From: Armatimonadota bacterium
GTDB lineage: Bacteria > Armatimonadota > UBA5829 > JAUSEB01
Length of the DNA stretch: 32,500 nucleotides
Direction of reading: 5' to 3'
Assembly: GCA_030650495.1 (NCBI GenBank)
Contig: JAUSEB010000404.1
Location: forward strand, 1-32,500
Both the position numbers and the translations under genes were made by a program. Shown here piece by piece: positions 7,859 through 17,564 of this stretch. Every line of letters starts with the position of its first letter. The stretch's first letter is position 1. The notes beneath the pieces are model-generated. The model made no database searches. It was not told the origin of the DNA and was given only the letters and a program-made list of their open reading frames with translations.

Positions 7859-7884
7859 GCTTCGGGGCAAAAACTTCCCGAAGC
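7859..7884. repeat. CTTCGGG-type hairpin
   Basis: Arms GCTTCGGG (7859-7866) and CCCGAAGC (7877-7884). The right arm plus the adjoining ATAGGAAATG is an inverse copy of the left flank of the hairpin at 2931. Confidence 0.75.
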
Positions 7885-7914
7885 ATAGGAAATGAAATTT
7901 AGTTTAGGTTTGTA

Positions 7915-7942
7915 TTCTAACTTCTAACTCCTAACTTCTAGA
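7915..7942. repeat. Heptanucleotide array TTCTAAC/TCCTAAC x4, next to rmlA ribosome-binding site
   Basis: Units TTCTAAC, TTCTAAC, TCCTAAC, TTCTAGA in phase. The array ends one base before the GGGAGG Shine-Dalgarno sequence of the next gene. Confidence 0.9.
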
Positions 7943-7956
7943 TGGGAGGTTGTTTT

Positions 7957-9027
7957 ATGCCAATGAAGGCTTTGATATTGAGCGGAGGCCGGGGAACGAG
8001 GCTTCGCCCCATAACGCACACCAGCGCGAAACAGCTTGTGCCGATTGCGAACAAGCCCATTCTTTTCTATGCGATCGAGGCGATTCGAGACGCGGGAATT
8101 TCCGACATCGGCATCATCGTCGGTGACACTCATTGCGAGATCGAAGAGGCTGTTGGCGACGGGTCGATTTGGGGCGTAAAGGTTACATACATACCCCAGG
8201 ATGCTCCGCTGGGCCTTGCACATGCCGTGAAAACCGCCCAGCCTTTCTTAAAAGATGATCCTTTTGTAATGTTCCTCGGCGACAATCTCATCAGAGACGG
8301 CATCGCACGATTAGTGAGCGAATTCAGCAAAAGCAAAGCGAACTCCCAAATCCTTCTGGCGCATGTGAAAAACCCCCAGGATTTCGGCGTGGCCGAGCTT
8401 GACGGCGACCGTGTGTTCAGGCTGCGGGAGAAGCCAAAGGAGCCTAAGAGCGATCTTGCCCTGGTCGGCGTGTATATGTTCGACCGCAATGTCTTCGAGG
8501 CAGTTGACGCGATTACTCCCTCCGCAAGGGGCGAATTGGAAATAACCGACGCCATCCAGTATCTCATCGACCACGGTTATGACGTGCGGTGGCAGGTTGT
8601 CAACGGATGGTGGAAGGATACTGGCAAGCTGGAGGACATGCTTGAGGCTAACCGTCTGGTTTTGGACGGTTTGGAGACCTGTATGGAAGGCAACGTCGAT
8701 GGGAAATCCAGCGTACATGGACGGGTGTGCATAAAACCGGGCGCGAAGATAATAAATAGCACGGTTCGCGGCCCGGCGATTATCGGGGAAGACTGCATTA
8801 TAGAGAACTCCTATATCGGGCCGTATACATCCATATATAATGGTGTTACCATACTCAACAGCGAGGTGGAGCACAGCATAATACTCGAAAACAGCAGCGT
8901 CAAAGATATTGGAAGCCGGATCGAAGACAGTTTAATAGGTAAGAGCGTCGTTGTAAGCAAAGACAATCAAAAACCCAGAGCCTATCGGTTCATGTTGGGT
9001 GACAACAGCGAGGTAAGTGTGATATGA
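7957..9027 (+). CDS. rmlA: Glucose-1-phosphate thymidylyltransferase, long form (RmlA/StrD-like)
   Basis: A 356-residue sugar nucleotidyltransferase that makes dTDP-glucose from dTTP and glucose-1-phosphate. The N-terminal LILSGGRGTRLRPIT signature is the nucleotide and metal site; KQLVPIANKPILFYAIE and MFLGDNLI follow, and GWWKDTGK marks the end of the catalytic domain. The C-terminal 100 residues show hexapeptide-type periodicity (ARGPAIIGEDCIIENSYIG-like), giving a left-handed beta-helix; this is the long form typical of archaea and of antibiotic or surface-sugar clusters, in contrast to the 290-residue enterobacterial RmlA. The start ATG at 7957 follows GGGAGG by 7 bases. It overlaps the next gene by ATGA. 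A uridylyl- or other specificity cannot be excluded, but the rmlB neighbour supports dTDP. Confidence 0.9.
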   Translation: MPMKALILSGGRGTRLRPITHTSAKQLVPIANKPILFYAIEAIRDAGISDIGIIVGDTHCEIEEAVGDGSIWGVKVTYIPQDAPLGLAHAVKTAQPFLKDDPFVMFLGDNLIRDGIARLVSEFSKSKANSQILLAHVKNPQDFGVAELDGDRVFRLREKPKEPKSDLALVGVYMFDRNVFEAVDAITPSARGELEITDAIQYLIDHGYDVRWQVVNGWWKDTGKLEDMLEANRLVLDGLETCMEGNVDGKSSVHGRVCIKPGAKIINSTVRGPAIIGEDCIIENSYIGPYTSIYNGVTILNSEVEHSIILENSSVKDIGSRIEDSLIGKSVVVSKDNQKPRAYRFMLGDNSEVSVI

Positions 9028-9494
9028 GTAAGCGCGCGATAATCCAGGGAGTGGAAATTAAGCAACTGCGGAAAATGGTTGATGAACGCGGTTATCTCAT
9101 GGAGATGCTCCGAGCCGACGATGCCATATTCGATAAATTCGGCCAGTGCTATGTCGCGCTTAATTATCCGGGTGTTATCCGAGCCTGGCACTATCACAAG
9201 CTGCAGATTGATTTCTGGGTTGTCGTGAAAGGCGAAGTCAAAGTCGGCCTTTACGACGCGAGAGAGGACTCTCCCACGAAGGGAGTAGTCAACGAGTTTT
9301 TCCTTGGAGAAAACAACCCGGTTTTGCTCAAGATACCAATTGGTGTATTGCATGGGTATAAGACGGTTGGCGTCGAACCTTCGCTTCTCCTCAACTTCCC
9401 GACGCAGCCGTATAATCCGGCGGAGCCTGATGAATATCGGACGCCTTACGACACCGAAGACATCCCGTACGACTGGGATATAGTGATGGTGTAG
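9024..9494 (+). CDS. rmlC: dTDP-4-dehydrorhamnose 3,5-epimerase-family cupin (RmlC-like)
   Basis: A 156-residue cupin related to RmlC, which epimerises dTDP-4-keto-6-deoxyglucose at C3 and C5. IRAWHYHKLQIDFWVVVKGEVKVGLYD carries the histidine and strand pattern of the active-site half, and VLLKIPIGVLHGYKTVG the second cupin motif. It is shorter than typical RmlC (about 180 residues), and the usual RGLH motif is RAWH, so it could be a single-site epimerase or a related ketosugar-modifying cupin. The ATG overlaps the rmlA stop (ATGA) and it ends 2 bases before rmlB, so it certainly acts in the same pathway. No rmlD reductase is present in the window. Confidence 0.82.
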   Translation: MSKRAIIQGVEIKQLRKMVDERGYLMEMLRADDAIFDKFGQCYVALNYPGVIRAWHYHKLQIDFWVVVKGEVKVGLYDAREDSPTKGVVNEFFLGENNPVLLKIPIGVLHGYKTVGVEPSLLLNFPTQPYNPAEPDEYRTPYDTEDIPYDWDIVMV

Positions 9495-11885: not shown

Positions 11886-13061
11886 ATGGATTTAAGACTC
11901 GACAAACCAATAATCAATTTCGCCAGGCCAGTAAGGGCGCTGGAGCCATCGGACAGCGCCGCGCGCGCCGCCGGGTTGTTCCATGCAGTCGGCGTAAGCT
12001 CGCTTCCGGTTGTCGTGGATGGCCGCGTAGCCGGTGTCGTGACCGAGGCAACCATACTCAAGCTGATAGCCGAAACCCTGCGCGACGGCGGTTCAGCGGA
12101 GCAAATGCCAATCGCTGAAGCCATACGGCGGCAGACTGTGTTCGCCCACAGAGATATGACAGTTGGGCAAGTCGCGGGAGCATTTGCATCATCCGATGAA
12201 GAAGCGCTGCCTATAGTAGACGAGTTCGGCGGGTTCTATGGAATGGTCAGCCGCACCGATATATTGGCTTTCCTTTCCGGTTCGTTAAGGCCGGCGAATA
12301 TAGCGGGGATGGCTACGCCTTTGGGAGTATATCTAACAAATGGAAGCGTTCGCGCCGGAGCGGGCAATATCGGACTGTTCCTCAGCGGGGTTATGCTGGG
12401 ATTCATTATGATGCTCTCAAGCGGGACAGTGTGGGCTATTGCCTGGTTGATGCAGCGTATTACGGGCCTGCAATTTCTAAATCTGCTTCTGCCGTACTAC
12501 ATGCATCTTAACCCAAAATGGCTTAACGCGATACAATGGGTTCCGCCGGTATTAGTGATATTATTAGTAATGCTGTTTATCCGATTTTCGCCGCTGTCCG
12601 GTTATCATGCGGCGGAGCATATGACCGTACACGCCATCGAGGACGGCGAAGAGTTGACACCGGAGATTGTGCGGTATATGCCAAGGGTTCATGTCAGATG
12701 CGGCACAAATTTGCTGGCGGCGTCATCGATTTTCCTGATTATAGCCGGGAGTTTCTCCAGCGACATCGCAGTCCTGCTTGCGATAGCGGTAGTCATAATC
12801 GGCTGGCGTTCCGTTGGTGGCTACATCCAGCGTATCGCCACCACGAAAACGCCTTCGCCTAAGCAGCTTGAAAACGGCGTGCGAGTAGGGCAGGAGCTTA
12901 TAGCAAAATATCAGGATATGCCGAGCTACCAGGCGCGTGGTTTTGCGAGAATATGGAATATAGGAATTCTCCAGAGCATGGCCGGATTGGCGTTCGTAAT
13001 CGGTTTGGAATCTCTGGCTTCGAAACTGTTTAAATTCTCTCTCCCGTTTTTAGGAGTGTGA
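11886..13061 (+). CDS. CBS-domain / DUF1385 (YqhQ-like) membrane fusion protein
   Basis: A 391-residue protein joining two recognisable parts. Residues 1-135 form a pair of CBS repeats (SSLPVVVDGRVAGVVTEATI and ALPIVDEFGGFYGMVSRTDI), which in other proteins bind adenine nucleotides. From about residue 150 to the end is a DUF1385 membrane region with segments near 160-185, 215-235 and 280-310 and the family signature YHAAEHMTVHAIEDGEEL plus RVHVRCGTNLL near 238-280. DUF1385 function is unknown; in Firmicutes the single-domain YqhQ often lies beside rpmE and prfA. Here the neighbour is rpmB, divergently. The ATG at 11886 has no clear ribosome-binding site, so the start is tentative. Nucleotide-regulated membrane function is an inference. 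Confidence 0.85.
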   Translation: MDLRLDKPIINFARPVRALEPSDSAARAAGLFHAVGVSSLPVVVDGRVAGVVTEATILKLIAETLRDGGSAEQMPIAEAIRRQTVFAHRDMTVGQVAGAFASSDEEALPIVDEFGGFYGMVSRTDILAFLSGSLRPANIAGMATPLGVYLTNGSVRAGAGNIGLFLSGVMLGFIMMLSSGTVWAIAWLMQRITGLQFLNLLLPYYMHLNPKWLNAIQWVPPVLVILLVMLFIRFSPLSGYHAAEHMTVHAIEDGEELTPEIVRYMPRVHVRCGTNLLAASSIFLIIAGSFSSDIAVLLAIAVVIIGWRSVGGYIQRIATTKTPSPKQLENGVRVGQELIAKYQDMPSYQARGFARIWNIGILQSMAGLAFVIGLESLASKLFKFSLPFLGV

Positions 13062-13066
13062 TAATT

Positions 13067-13285
13067 ATGGAAATGAAACCGTATGTGACAAGAGATACCA
13101 GCATAGCGGAGTTGCTTCAAAAGTACCCGCAAACAGCCGACGTGTTCAGCAGTCATGGTTTGGGCTGCTTTGTGTGTTTGGGCGCGTCTATGGAGACGGT
13201 GGAAGAAGGCGCGATGATGCATGGTTTGGACGCAGACACGATAATAGAGGAGCTGAACCGGGTAATTGGGGAGCAGTTGGTTTAG
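13067..13285 (+). CDS. DUF1858 domain protein (small cysteine-containing, redox-disulfide type)
   Basis: A 72-residue protein matching the DUF1858 family, found alone or attached to hybrid-cluster proteins and thought to have a redox-active disulfide. MYVTRDTSIAELL-like opening, then the HGLGCFVCLGAS motif with a CxxC pair, then an acidic helix. The ATG at 13067 is chosen because GGAG lies 10 bases upstream, overlapping the end of the preceding gene; an in-frame GTG at 13058 is too close to that site. It starts 5 bases after the DUF1385 gene, so they are cotranscribed. Its TAG stop lies within the first unit of a TTAGAAG heptad array. Partner proteins are unknown. Confidence 0.82.
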   Translation: MEMKPYVTRDTSIAELLQKYPQTADVFSSHGLGCFVCLGASMETVEEGAMMHGLDADTIIEELNRVIGEQLV

Positions 13286-13309
13286 AAGTTAGAAGTTAGG
13301 AGTTAGAAG
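13282..13309. repeat. Heptanucleotide array TTAGAAG/TTAGGAG x4, containing a stop codon
   Basis: Units TTAGAAG, TTAGAAG, TTAGGAG, TTAGAAG in phase. The TAG of the first unit is the stop codon of the DUF1858 gene (13283-13285). Confidence 0.92.
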
Positions 13310-13321
13310 GGGGAATTTATC

Positions 13322-13347
13322 CTTCGGCTTGTTCTTTGAAGCCGAAG
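13322..13347. repeat. CTTCGGCTT hairpin
   Basis: Perfect 9-base arms CTTCGGCTT (13322-13330) and AAGCCGAAG (13339-13347). The left arm with flanks (19 bases, from 13318) is an inverse copy of the sequence just after the MITE-like element near 7777-7795. Confidence 0.8.
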
Positions 13348-13359
13348 ATAAGTTGTTTT

Positions 13360-13406
13360 GTTGCATCGGTAGCCTGCTGCCGATGCTGGCGCCGAAGGCG
13401 CCAAAC
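13360..13406 (+). repeat. REP-like double-hairpin element, copy 2
   Basis: A 47-base element identical over its full length to the copy at 17495-17541: hairpin GCATCGGTAGC/GCTGCCGATGC followed by GGCGCC-GAA-GGCGCC. It ends 27 bases before the argS start codon, within the leader of that gene. Confidence 0.92.
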
Positions 13407-13433
13407 TCCCCCGACTCCCTAGAACGAGGATAT

Positions 13434-14834
13434 ATGATCAAAAGTGAACTTGTTGAAAACACGCTGCGCCGGATTGTCTCCGAGGGGGATAACTACGGCC
13501 GCGCTCAGCTTCACACTGGGGAAAAGGTTCTGGTGGAATATGTCAGCGCTAATCCGAACGGCCCGATAACGGTCGGCAGCGCAAGGGGCGGCGTAATTGG
13601 CGATGTTCTGTCCAACCTTCTGCAAGCTGTTGGATATGATGTCTGCCGCGAATACTACATCAACGACGCCGTGAACAGCCTTCAGATGCAGCATTTCGGC
13701 AAATCCCTCGAAGCAAGATATTTGCAGGCTTTGGGACAGGACGTGGAGTTCCCCGAAGACGGTTATAAAGGCGAATACGTCACGCATATAGCAAAACATG
13801 TAGTCGAGCGTCACGGTGACAAATACCTCACAATGTCAAAGACCGAGCGGCTTAAGGCGTTCACAAGCATTGGGGAACGCGAAATGCTGGCCCAGCAGAA
13901 GGCGGATTTGGCCGCGTTCGGAGTGGTATTTGACAACTGGTATTCCGAGCGGACTCTGCACGAATCGAGCAAGGTTGAGACGGCGGTCGGAGTTCTGAAA
14001 GATAAAGGCTACGCTTATGAGGACAAGGACGCAATCTGGCTGAAGTCAACCGCATTTGGTGACGATAAAGACAGGGCGCTGATCAGACGCAACAGCCAGC
14101 CGACCTACATCGCAAGCGACGCGGCGTATCACGCGGACAAGTTCAATCGCGGCTTCGGCAAATTGATTAACATTTGGGGGCCGCAGCACAATGGCTACAT
14201 CGCCAGGACCAAAGCTGCTGTTTCCGCTCTTGGTTACGATCCAGATAAACTCGATATTATCATCTACCAAACTGTCCGGCTGTTCTCCGGCGGTGAGTTG
14301 GTTATGATGTCCAAACGCGCTGGAGAGTTGATACCCCTGAGCGAGCTTGTGCAGGAGGTCGGCAAAGACGCATCCAGGTTCTTCCTGTTAATGCAAGGCG
14401 CTGATACTCCGCTCGATTTCGACCTTGAGCTTGCCAACCAGCAGTCTTCGGAAAACCCTGTTTATCAAGTGCAATACGCCCACGCAAGTATTTGCGGCAT
14501 TTTACGATCCGCCGAAGAGCAGGGTGTCGCGGTTCCTGACGCTTCGAAGACAGACCTGTCCATGCTTGGTCACAACAGCGAGGTCGATCTTGTCAAAAAG
14601 CTGGCTGAGTATCCCGATGAGATCATCAGCGCGGCGGAGTCATATCAACCTCACCGGCTTACGGCTTACGCAAGGGAGCTTGCGTCCAGCTTCCACGCCT
14701 TCTATCGGGACTGCCGTGTGCTTGGAGAAGAGCTATCTCTGACAAATGCCCGGCTTGTTTTAGTGGCTGCAGCTCGCACAACGCTCCGAAACGTTCTAGC
14801 CATACTCGGTGTCAGCGCGCCGGAGCGCATGTAG
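13434..14834 (+). CDS. argS: Arginyl-tRNA synthetase, N-terminally short, altered HIGH motif
   Basis: A 466-residue class I synthetase of the ArgRS type. GDNYGR and KVLVEYVSANPNGP lead into the HIGH region at residues 45-49, but this reads ITVGSARGG in place of the usual LHVGHAR, so both histidines are replaced. The remainder is typical: GYDVCREYYINDA, INIWGPQHNGYIAR, the KMSKS equivalent VMMSKRAGELIPL, and a DALR anticodon domain containing ENPVYQVQYAHASICGILR. The N-terminal tRNA D-loop domain of about 75-80 residues is missing; the DNA upstream is heptad and REP repeat, so it cannot be restored by a nearby frameshift. ATG 13434 has GAGGA just before it. It is either a lineage-specific variant or a paralogue with reduced or changed activity. 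Confidence 0.85.
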   Translation: MIKSELVENTLRRIVSEGDNYGRAQLHTGEKVLVEYVSANPNGPITVGSARGGVIGDVLSNLLQAVGYDVCREYYINDAVNSLQMQHFGKSLEARYLQALGQDVEFPEDGYKGEYVTHIAKHVVERHGDKYLTMSKTERLKAFTSIGEREMLAQQKADLAAFGVVFDNWYSERTLHESSKVETAVGVLKDKGYAYEDKDAIWLKSTAFGDDKDRALIRRNSQPTYIASDAAYHADKFNRGFGKLINIWGPQHNGYIARTKAAVSALGYDPDKLDIIIYQTVRLFSGGELVMMSKRAGELIPLSELVQEVGKDASRFFLLMQGADTPLDFDLELANQQSSENPVYQVQYAHASICGILRSAEEQGVAVPDASKTDLSMLGHNSEVDLVKKLAEYPDEIISAAESYQPHRLTAYARELASSFHAFYRDCRVLGEELSLTNARLVLVAAARTTLRNVLAILGVSAPERM

Positions 14835-14906
14835 CCGCCGGGAACTATCCGCCGCCGCAACTCGTCGTTTGAATATGGATGAGCATTCTCATTTCAGGTG
14901 TTGGAT

Positions 14907-17429
14907 ATGCGTAATTTAATCCGGTTGGTGGTAAGCATAGCGTTCTGCGCCGCTGTTTTAAGCGGTACAGTTCTGGCGGACGCCGCTCCGGCGGCGTCCG
15001 GCGTGTTTGTAGATAAAGACGGGCAAAGCCACGCCTGGCGCGTCAATGAATCGCATGCGCTGATCTGGGACGAGTCTCCATATCTTCCAGTGGGTTTTGT
15101 TTTTAAGTCCGCCTATTTGCAGGCCCAAGCGGATGAGAATTGGCAATCTGACGTTAAGACACTCGAATCTCTTAAAGCCAAAGGCGTAACGGACATTCTT
15201 GTCAGAGCCGGAGGGCCGGCCACTTCGATTCCTCCCGAAGTCTGGCAAAAGCTGATCGCTTATCTCGATGAACAGGGCTTCAAATATGGCATTGAGATCG
15301 CGGATGGCCCCAAGACTCGCGCCGCTGGGTTCGTCATCTCACCTCGGAAGTATAAACTCCCCAATGTGACAAACGGCCAGATGGAATTGAGCATCCCCGG
15401 CGTTCGCGGAGGGTTTTTCATCACAGCCGAGCCAAATAGCGGGGCAATCCTGGACGGAGGCGTCATTCGCACATCCGGCGATAAGGCTGTCTTGAACGTC
15501 AGGGTGGATAAAGATTTGTCGCCTACTCTGGTTGTTTTTCCCGCGAAAGGTATCTCTACAGACAGTGGTGTAATGCCGGATGTGTGGCTGGGGTCGGACG
15601 AGTACCGCGACAGGTTGATGGACTTCCTTAACTCGGTAAAATTCGGCAAAGGCCTCAGATTCCTTATCGATCCATTTGACGGCGGTATGGCTCCGACTGG
15701 TGAAATGGCCGCCGCAATCCCGGATTCTCCAGGTTTCCGCATAGAGTTTGAAGGCTGGCTCAGCTTGAAGTATAAAACTCCCGAGGAGTTATTCGAAGCG
15801 TGGGGGATCTCAAGAGGCAATAAAGCCGCTTACGATGTCGCGGCCCGCCTACTGCCGCTCTGGTGGGAGGGCAGAGGAGTGTCGTACGTTTACGACCGCG
15901 CCAGCGATCAGTATCTGGAGGCGGACACAAATAAGTCCGGCATGTGGCGCGACATCCTCGAATTCCGTGATTCCTCGATACAGCAATATATGAATTCCGT
16001 CGCGGATGCATTGAAGCGTTTCGGCGCGGATGTTCCTGTAGTTTTCACGGCGGACTCATATAACCGCGTTTTCGCGAACAGTCGTAGCGACGGTGGTTTT
16101 GATGGTTTGAGCGCTTCCATTTTCAGCGATTCGGATGAAGACACCGCGTCCGCCGGGCAGGCTTACGCCCTGACTCTGGAGGCCGGCAAGACTTCATGGT
16201 TTATCGGAACCGGGGTCGCGGGAGCGGATACCACGAATCTGCCTAAAGCTATGTCGCGTTTGAATGAAATCGGCGCAAAGGGTTTCTTTATATCGGCGCC
16301 TGAAGGGACCGCGCTTGATACATTGGCCGGCTTAAAGAGCCGCCTGGTTCAGTCAGCGGACTACTCTCCTGAGATTCTTTACTATCCGTCCGGTGTTCTC
16401 ACCGGCGCGCATGTGAAGAAGCTGGACTACAAGACCTGGTGGCTTCCCACACTGCGAAATGGTGAACTTGTGCAATTCGGCGATAATATCTTTGGATACA
16501 AACTGTCCGGCGATATGCGAATACCCGCGGAATCAGCCCCGCCGGCGGCGGGTTCGGACAAACAGACTGTGTCGCTGGTGGACGGCGTGTGTCTTTGGTC
16601 TAACAATGGACAGGCTGCAGTGACGATAAAACTTTGGGGGCGGCAGTTCGCCGTCTCTGCCGCAAATCAGTCGGCTGCCCAGTATGCGCCCAAGAAAGAT
16701 CTCCTGACTCTGCGATTATCCGATATGCCTGTTGTGATCTACGGTTTGTCAGTAGAGCAACTGTTCCCAATGGAAATTGCCCGTTCTGAGATCGACATGC
16801 TTGAGAAAGCCTTGGCCATTCTCACCAAGACCGGGGCAAAGGCTCCGTTGCAGATTGCGGCTGTCGGGAGGGCGAAGAATCTGCTCAATGGCGATTATCC
16901 GCTGCAGGCTTACAATATCGCGGCGTCGAATCTGAACGAGCTTGCCGCTACTTTTAACTCGTATATCTGGATGGAGGGAGAAAGCTCCCGTGACCACAGT
17001 TTTGACGGAACCTCGGCGCTTATAGGCAGCAGCGGCGCCGGTTATCTCAAACTGGATATGCCTGACGACCACCCGTTGAAACCGTACTCCGCCGCGTATT
17101 CGTTCAGCGCTCAAGTTACGGGCAGTTACGACTTGTGGATTGCGGCTGCGCCGCCGGGACAATCGAGCGCATCCGATCTGCAATTTTCAATTGACGGCGC
17201 GGAATGGCAGCCGGTTTCCGTAACGAATGCAACCGAGCTTTACGCCGGATCTATGACGTGGTTCAAAGCCGGTTCCGCCACTCTCTCCAGCGGAGCGCAT
17301 ACATTGACCATCCAGGTTGTCCGGCCAAAAGCCGGCGAACCTTACAGCGCAGCCATTGATGTGGTATTATTGGCAAGAAGGCCATTCACACCGCGCGGAC
17401 CGGAAAAACCTTCAGGGATAGCGCCGTGA
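14907..17429 (+). CDS. Secreted glycoside hydrolase-like protein with C-terminal carbohydrate-binding-like domain
   Basis: An 840-residue probably exported protein. A signal peptide is clear (MRNLIRLVVSIAFCAAVLSG, cleavage near VLADAAPA). The middle part resembles the TIM-barrel region of GH42/GH-A-like glycosidases: GLRFLIDPFDGGMAPTGEMA, FRIEFEGWLSLKYKTPEEL with the following AWG typical of the beta-galactosidase layout, and DVPVVFTADSYN. The final 150 residues look like a galactose-binding-type sugar module (IWMEGESS...YDLWIAAAPP...GAHTLTIQVV). I cannot name a catalytic pair or substrate, so activity is uncertain. The ATG at 14907 follows AGGTG by 6 bases; an in-frame GTG at 14898 is the alternative. 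Its TGA stop is the first three bases of a TGATGGG heptad array. Downstream genes for a dehydrogenase and a sugar kinase fit sugar use. Confidence 0.72.
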   Translation: MRNLIRLVVSIAFCAAVLSGTVLADAAPAASGVFVDKDGQSHAWRVNESHALIWDESPYLPVGFVFKSAYLQAQADENWQSDVKTLESLKAKGVTDILVRAGGPATSIPPEVWQKLIAYLDEQGFKYGIEIADGPKTRAAGFVISPRKYKLPNVTNGQMELSIPGVRGGFFITAEPNSGAILDGGVIRTSGDKAVLNVRVDKDLSPTLVVFPAKGISTDSGVMPDVWLGSDEYRDRLMDFLNSVKFGKGLRFLIDPFDGGMAPTGEMAAAIPDSPGFRIEFEGWLSLKYKTPEELFEAWGISRGNKAAYDVAARLLPLWWEGRGVSYVYDRASDQYLEADTNKSGMWRDILEFRDSSIQQYMNSVADALKRFGADVPVVFTADSYNRVFANSRSDGGFDGLSASIFSDSDEDTASAGQAYALTLEAGKTSWFIGTGVAGADTTNLPKAMSRLNEIGAKGFFISAPEGTALDTLAGLKSRLVQSADYSPEILYYPSGVLTGAHVKKLDYKTWWLPTLRNGELVQFGDNIFGYKLSGDMRIPAESAPPAAGSDKQTVSLVDGVCLWSNNGQAAVTIKLWGRQFAVSAANQSAAQYAPKKDLLTLRLSDMPVVIYGLSVEQLFPMEIARSEIDMLEKALAILTKTGAKAPLQIAAVGRAKNLLNGDYPLQAYNIAASNLNELAATFNSYIWMEGESSRDHSFDGTSALIGSSGAGYLKLDMPDDHPLKPYSAAYSFSAQVTGSYDLWIAAAPPGQSSASDLQFSIDGAEWQPVSVTNATELYAGSMTWFKAGSATLSSGAHTLTIQVVRPKAGEPYSAAIDVVLLARRPFTPRGPEKPSGIAP

Positions 17430-17491: not shown

Positions 17492-17494
17492 TTT

Positions 17495-17541
17495 GTTGCA
17501 TCGGTAGCCTGCTGCCGATGCTGGCGCCGAAGGCGCCAAAC
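17495..17541 (+). repeat. REP-like double-hairpin element, copy 3
   Basis: Identical over 47 bases to the copy at 13360-13406. It is followed at once by the GC-rich palindrome at 17543. Confidence 0.92.
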
Positions 17542-17542
17542 C

Positions 17543-17564
17543 CCCTCTCCCTTGAGGGAGAGGG
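17543..17564. repeat. GC-rich palindrome (CCCTCTCCCT family)
   Basis: Perfect 10-base arms CCCTCTCCCT and AGGGAGAGGG around TG, followed by TTGGGGTGAGGGTG. The same palindrome-plus-tail occurs at 3966-3999 on the minus strand. Confidence 0.85.

Follow-up and report, generated by a model that had tools for sequence, protein, structure and literature searches.

The locus analyzed here, an arginyl-tRNA synthetase (ArgRS) gene with a shortened 5' end and an aberrant HIGH motif in a member of the Armatimonadota, raises the question of whether it encodes a minimal synthetase on which the cell depends, a protein that has taken up another role, or the remnant of a superseded enzyme. The window is the entire stretch of 32,500 nucleotides from contig JAUSEB010000404.1 (assembly GCA_030650495.1, forward strand). 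The original prediction, made from its letters alone, described an ArgRS with about 75-80 N-terminal residues missing, repeat DNA upstream, TVGS at the HIGH position and all other ArgRS motifs present; a minimal enzyme with unusual catalysis was proposed should this be the only argS, and a paralogue with another role should there be a second. Our analysis points instead to an ancestral argS, probably superseded by one of foreign origin and now eroding at its original locus.

Identity and architecture of the truncated ArgRS

The open reading frame begins with ATG and encodes 466 residues followed by a stop codon. Its product scores 374 bits against the TIGR00456 model (equivalog cut-off 262), covering only model positions 87-569, and Pfam recovers the class I catalytic domain (PF00750, 56.6 bits) and the DALR domain in it. 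The N-terminal domain PF03485, present in both the argS of the relative G001 and the second argS described below, gave no Pfam match in the window protein. The AlphaFold2 model has a mean pLDDT of 93.7, and its best match in the PDB is the ArgRS of Campylobacter jejuni (3fnr; TM-score 0.94 normalized by 3fnr). The identification as an ArgRS is thus borne out by profile, domains and fold alike. The main features are:

13434..14834, plus strand: truncated type-1 argS (TIGR00456, Pfam, AlphaFold2)
13569..13580, plus strand: HIGH position, T-V-G-S, residues 46-49 (alignments; ancestral to the clade)
14304..14315, plus strand: KMSK position, M-M-S-K followed by R-A-G, residues 291-294 (alignments; catalytic lysine retained)
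14469..14831, plus strand: DALR anticodon-binding domain, residues 346-466 (PF05746, 119 bits)

Downstream of the new start there is neither a frameshift nor an internal stop; the 5' part of the gene is gone. A GAGG lies four bases before the ATG at 13434, and an alternative TTG start at 13329 lengthens the frame by repeat-derived residues only.

TVGS in place of HIGH is the norm of the lineage

Class I synthetases are defined by two signature motifs, of which HIGH is one; its replacement by TVGS was correctly noticed from the sequence. We considered TVGS as a product of decay in the window copy and rejected this, as it is ancestral and occurs in full-length relatives. In an alignment of orthologues drawn from 40 related genomes it accompanies a full N-terminal domain in G001 (same family, 80% identical), in G003 and G005 (same order) and in G019 (same class; a single-contig genome), and the orthologues of G021 and G023, likewise with a full N-terminal domain, show TVAS. 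In G005 and G019 the TVGS-bearing argS is the sole TIGR00456 match. These alignments indicate that TVGS is the lineage norm and predates the truncation; it is very probably the working HIGH variant of this clade.

To place this in the context of the phylum we collected 134 ArgRSs, which a 500-bit cut divided into 101 of type 1 (that of the window) and 33 of "type 2". The type-1 set comprises listed and fetched sequences out of 201 genomes with a match, and includes the window copy and several degenerate copies, termed relicts below (e.g. L022, L024, L025, L064, L067); with the same cut, L062, the relict of G039, falls into the group of 33. Before counting, duplicate loci were removed, five in all (L001, L002, L028, L041, L050). 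A histidine occupies the first HIGH position in 29 of the 101 type-1 sequences and the fourth in 40; both are present in just 9 and neither in 41, so that the premise of the original prediction that ArgRS normally has HVGH fails in this phylum. The 41 sequences devoid of either histidine read SVVN (17), TVGS (5), TIGS (5), AVVQ (3), TVAG (3) or other variants, and the HIGH position has 29 spellings across the 101. In this clade TVGS is thus compatible with activity. For 25 of the 41 the source genome is at least 90% complete and has exactly one TIGR00456 match (the other 16 are from genomes with more than one match or missing from the match-count table). Judging from its being the only copy, many of these bacteria very probably depend on an ArgRS lacking both HIGH histidines, which makes a class I active site without them directly testable. 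TIGR00456 found no match in G007, G066, G098 and G108, each at least 90% complete.

Among named type-1 ArgRSs from outside the phylum both histidines are present in 57 of 78 and neither in 3; these 78 derive from a pattern-selected set, limited to the 80 best-ranking among at least 597 candidates, after removal of L170 (Armatimonadetes) and L182 (Chthonomonas), whose ArgRSs match members of the phylum sample at 91% and 64-65%. TVGS, ordinary within its clade, is thus unusual among ArgRSs in general. The three exceptions, L155, L171 and L210, belong to two Bacillota/Firmicutes bins and one Actinomycetota bin and have the spellings VVVQ, NVVN and NVVS. Variation is also seen in type-2 ArgRSs, namely GIGH in G210, G189, G191 and G190 and GIHH in G043 (L069, L070, L071, L072, L076).

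Loss of the N-terminal domain at a conserved locus

The gene neighborhood of the window argS is that of its full-length counterpart in G001: a CBS-DUF1385 gene, a DUF1858 gene, argS and a gene for an 843-residue protein follow one another in both:

11886..13061, plus strand: CBS and DUF1385 membrane protein, the upstream neighbor of argS in the phylum (Pfam, synteny)
13058..13285, plus strand: DUF1858 protein of 75 residues, upstream of argS in G001 too (Pfam, synteny)
13285..13433, no strand assigned: sequence standing in for the argS leader and 5' part, with a repeat core at about 13357-13410 (repeat matches in the same genome; DUF1858-argS spacing)
14898..17429, plus strand: 843-residue protein with a signal-peptide-like start, the downstream neighbor (no Pfam match; synteny)

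The CBS-DUF1385 gene lies directly 5' of type-1 argS phylum-wide, relicts included (L272, L273, L274, L275, L277, L278, L279, L280), and a functional link between the two products is possible.

The distance from the DUF1858 gene to the first conserved argS codon is 181 bp in the window as against 588 bp in G001, and the 181 bp include the repeat. The latter has at least 53 matches in its own genome (40 of 398 candidates scored). It is a genome-specific, dispersed element whose core measures about 50 bp, other instances being at 17492-17545 of the window and at C204:16296-16365; a search of G001, G003, G004, G005 and G019 yielded one weak match, in G005, and none in the other four. Hence the reported loss of the N-terminal part next to repeat DNA stands, though its extent was underestimated, about 95-100 codons being missing relative to G001 rather than 75-80 residues. 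When the G001 N-terminal domain was used as a query, the window's genome returned only the C204 argS and a chance match with E=0.56. The comparison with ArgRSs of the phylum that the original prediction had proposed gave a divided answer: TVGS is shared, but a shortened N-terminus is exceptional. None of the closest type-1 relatives is shortened, and the only other copies found devoid of the N-terminal domain are relicts of another family that likewise has a second argS.

The N-terminal domain of ArgRS is the part that reads A20 in the D-loop of tRNA-Arg, and its loss should weaken recognition of tRNA-Arg by the window protein. A20 is described as a major recognition site in bacteria (PMC8318970).

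A complete second argS of probable foreign origin

A search for a second argS, also proposed at the outset, recovered a complete gene on contig C204 of the same genome. It encodes the N-terminal, catalytic and DALR domains, reads MHVGH at the HIGH position and is of the other ArgRS type. A sole minimal enzyme with unusual catalysis is consequently not implied. C204 carries the genome-specific repeat also found upstream of the window argS, and the LigA encoded on it shares 76% identity with that of G001, 63-67% with those within the order and 57-60% with those in the class and beyond; the shared repeat and the expected LigA ranking make contamination unlikely.

In a phylogenetic tree the closest partner of the C204 ArgRS is the type-2 enzyme of G177, which belongs to a different family (support 1.0), and it lies apart from the type-2 versions of its own order (G003) and of family f2. 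This grouping with another family suggests that the C204 argS was probably acquired horizontally. Strictly, then, "paralogue" would be an imprecise term for the window copy, which appears to be the ancestral, vertically inherited gene, with the C204 copy as the incomer. Two type-2 argS genes on different contigs (L059 and L060) were also observed in G015 of family f2.

Probable erosion of the window copy and tests of selection

The retention of all other ArgRS motifs, as originally claimed, holds for MSKR but not for five conserved residues that have changed (conservation is given for the other 100 phylum type-1 sequences and for the 80 named sequences, which here include L170 and L182):

14094..14096, plus strand: G221S (G in 82 of 100 and 78 of 80)
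14190..14192, plus strand: H253N, in the DHHGY motif (H in 70 of 100 and 76 of 80)
14394..14396, plus strand: R321Q (R in 74 of 100 and 72 of 80)
14466..14468, plus strand: Y345Q, bordering the DALR domain on its N-terminal side (Y in 95 of 100 and 78 of 80)
14487..14489, plus strand: R352S, in the YAHAR motif (R in 100 of 100, in 32 of 33 low-scoring (type-2) sequences and in 80 of 80)

None of the five columns varies among the 16 nearest full-length relatives compared (17 aligned type-1 sequences); in the wider samples the sites are less invariant, R352 excepted. Private changes at otherwise invariant columns number 0 or 1 in each of the 12 nearer relatives, with a single case of 4, and 8-12, among 58-86 unique residues, in each of the four most divergent. 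Relative to all its unique residues the window copy shows an excess of such losses, 5 of 31, compared with a total of 7 of 247 for 12 of the 16 relatives (Fisher p = 0.006; the four most divergent were omitted as too distant). Its branch is also longer, at 0.171 versus 0.087 for its sister G001 in a trimmed tree; an untrimmed tree gave 0.282, a value raised by residues of the open frame upstream of the homologous part. Of 15 outgroups, just 3 yield a significant relative-rate test (chi-square above 3.84). Under a codon model with saturated synonymous sites, omega = 1 is rejected for the branch as a whole, counted from its divergence from G001 (2dlnL 20.4), and a separate omega for the window branch brings no gain (2dlnL 0.03). 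With such saturation, which pairwise comparison shows as well, a recent relaxation is not measurable, and a search for a relative of the same genus found none. The data fit a gene that was long under selection and released recently, a fit that does not amount to proof of the release.

Taken together, we consider it likely that the window gene is an ancestral argS displaced by a foreign argS and now eroding in place, at an early stage. Under this scenario a vertically inherited type-1 argS, with TVGS already in place, would have been the original housekeeping enzyme of the cell. A complete HVGH argS of the other type, that on C204, would then have been acquired and have taken over Arg-tRNA synthesis. 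Subsequently a copy of the dispersed repeat, together with a deletion, would have replaced the argS leader along with some 100 codons at the 5' end, including the N-terminal domain. The remaining frame would have stayed open with a usable ATG, gathering changes at residues that other ArgRSs keep, and its product may by now be weak or inactive in aminoacylation. Counting against erosion are the intactness of the frame over 466 codons and the good predicted fold.

Relict ArgRS copies across the phylum and alternative explanations

The most serious alternative, which we nevertheless judge unlikely, is that the window copy has been retained for a new role, binding tRNA-Arg or associating with partners without charging, as an early member of a class of relict ArgRSs. 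Such a class can be recognized elsewhere in the phylum. We searched 28 genomes, picked for a suspected type-2 or odd argS along with some neighbors, with the type-1 profile: 14 combine a type-1-like copy with a type-2 argS, while type 2 occurs alone in 8 and type 1 alone in 6. In 11 of the 13 paired genomes besides that of the window the ancestral copy is degenerate, and among all 14 a type-1 copy with both the N-terminal domain and the SKR lysine occurs only in G003 and G051. The N-terminal domain is absent from the window copy and those of G039, G045, G049 and G050, and the SKR lysine from those of G028, G032, G039, G041, G042, G044, G045, G049, G050 and G177; most pairs thus have a type-1-like copy that has lost one or the other. 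The copy of G031 retains the lysine within a broken motif. Several relicts are still at the ancestral locus, with the DUF1385 gene upstream in G028, G031, G041, G042, G050 and G177; the large protein is encoded downstream of those in G039, G045, G049 and G050.

Three pairs of relicts are under strong purifying selection, with dN/dS in the range of about 0.09-0.21: 0.11 over 344 codons for G039/G045 (bootstrap 0.07-0.15; the type-2 pair of the same genomes has a close value of 0.13), 0.21 over 419 codons for G041/G042 (bootstrap 0.13-0.31) and 0.09 over 564 codons for G177/L170 (bootstrap 0.06-0.12). This implies that the degenerate copies of these three lineages are very probably functional proteins, and they are likely to be ArgRS-derived proteins with another role.

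These relicts differ considerably in what they preserve. Those of G039 and G045 (L269 7564-8718 and L270 7275-8423) start immediately before VSANP and are devoid of the N-terminal domain, SKR and much of DALR. The G044 relict (L276 at about 7883-9031; G044:C19:8882-10030) has the N-terminal and DALR domains in one open frame, with most of the catalytic domain gone. The G177 copy (L278 7863-9554) and L170, from a named Armatimonadetes bin, are 91% identical, with MSKR replaced (SGAMPEH / AGAMYDG). The clustering of relicts in the ArgRS tree is probably due to long-branch attraction, and we claim no single origin for them.

By analogy, an obvious model for the relicts would be the vertebrate protein DALRD3, an ArgRS-like binder of tRNA-Arg that does not charge it (PMC7237682); the loss of much of DALR in the G039/G045 relicts argues against a simple tRNA adaptor there. 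This precedent, together with the DALR and catalytic folds that appear intact in the predicted structure of the window protein, speaks for a new role of the window copy as well. Against it, there is no truncated counterpart within the order of the window genome, R352 has been lost in the window copy but is kept in all other type-1 sequences, and the truncation is accompanied by a repeat, as expected of decay.

A broader speculation, to which we give little credence at present, is that the HIGH motif of ArgRS has drifted freely in this phylum, in many cases losing both histidines, and that enzymes displaced by an incoming foreign ArgRS repeatedly become non-charging tRNA-binding proteins in place, many of them stripped of the N-terminal domain or the KMSK lysine, the window copy being the youngest found so far. 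Were this so, the window gene would still show the point of departure, a TVGS enzyme with its N-terminal domain cut away by a repeat. The displaced copies form a graded series, from intact (G003) through truncated (the window copy) to motif-less yet selected (G039/G045, G177), which lets the fate of an essential gene after its replacement be asked.

Returning to the displaced and eroding argS that we favor, two further alternatives have very little probability. The first holds that the window gene is the sole argS and a minimal working enzyme, with C204 originating from contamination or another strain; the bin has an estimated contamination of 5.8%, and the 3fnr chain, solved with about 28 residues before the shared part, indicates that the fold stands without the N-terminal domain. 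We rejected it given the complete argS on C204, a contig tied to the same genome by the repeat and the fitting LigA ranking, and the five conserved residues lost in the window copy. The second, an assembly artefact at a short high-copy repeat in a draft of 464 contigs, is hardly credible, since both flanks are the syntenic neighbors, so that a collapse would still require a repeat copy within argS, the N-terminal domain occurs elsewhere in the assembly only in the C204 argS, and the substituted residues are encoded at a distance from the repeat.

Comparison with known systems

Among characterized ArgRSs the closest in structure, that of C. jejuni (3fnr), shares with the window protein the TIGR00456 profile family, the fold and the MSKR lysine, and represents type 1, with SANP-x-G-P and MSKR. 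It differs in having HIGH, whereas the window protein has TVGS, no N-terminal domain and five altered conserved residues; the 3fnr chain itself has merely the aforementioned 28 or so residues before the shared part.

DALRD3 and the relicts are both ArgRS-like. DALRD3 lacks the catalytic motifs and keeps the DALR domain; it differs in being a eukaryotic protein with a demonstrated partner, METTL2 (PMC7237682).

The displacement itself recalls redundant aminoacyl-tRNA synthetases arising through gene transfer, where two enzymes of different origin reside in one genome and one is dispensable, as set out in a review (PMC9437257) and by Igloi (PMC8318970). The likeness lies in two ArgRS or other synthetase origins within a single genome; in the cases treated there active duplicates are retained or lost outright, whereas here a displaced ArgRS is probably eroding in place.

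A literature search, conducted largely outside subscription journals and over partial texts, found nothing on Armatimonadota ArgRSs or on ArgRSs devoid of the HIGH histidines. Working enzymes with naturally altered HIGH motifs are described for other amino acids, namely TrpRS with TIGN (PMC10201369) and the hyper-resistant IleRS2 with GXHH (PMC10485003). The ArgRSs of this phylum resemble them in having a natural alteration of the motif, and differ in the enzyme concerned and in the extent of the variation, which, with the 29 spellings among 101 sequences, is far wider.
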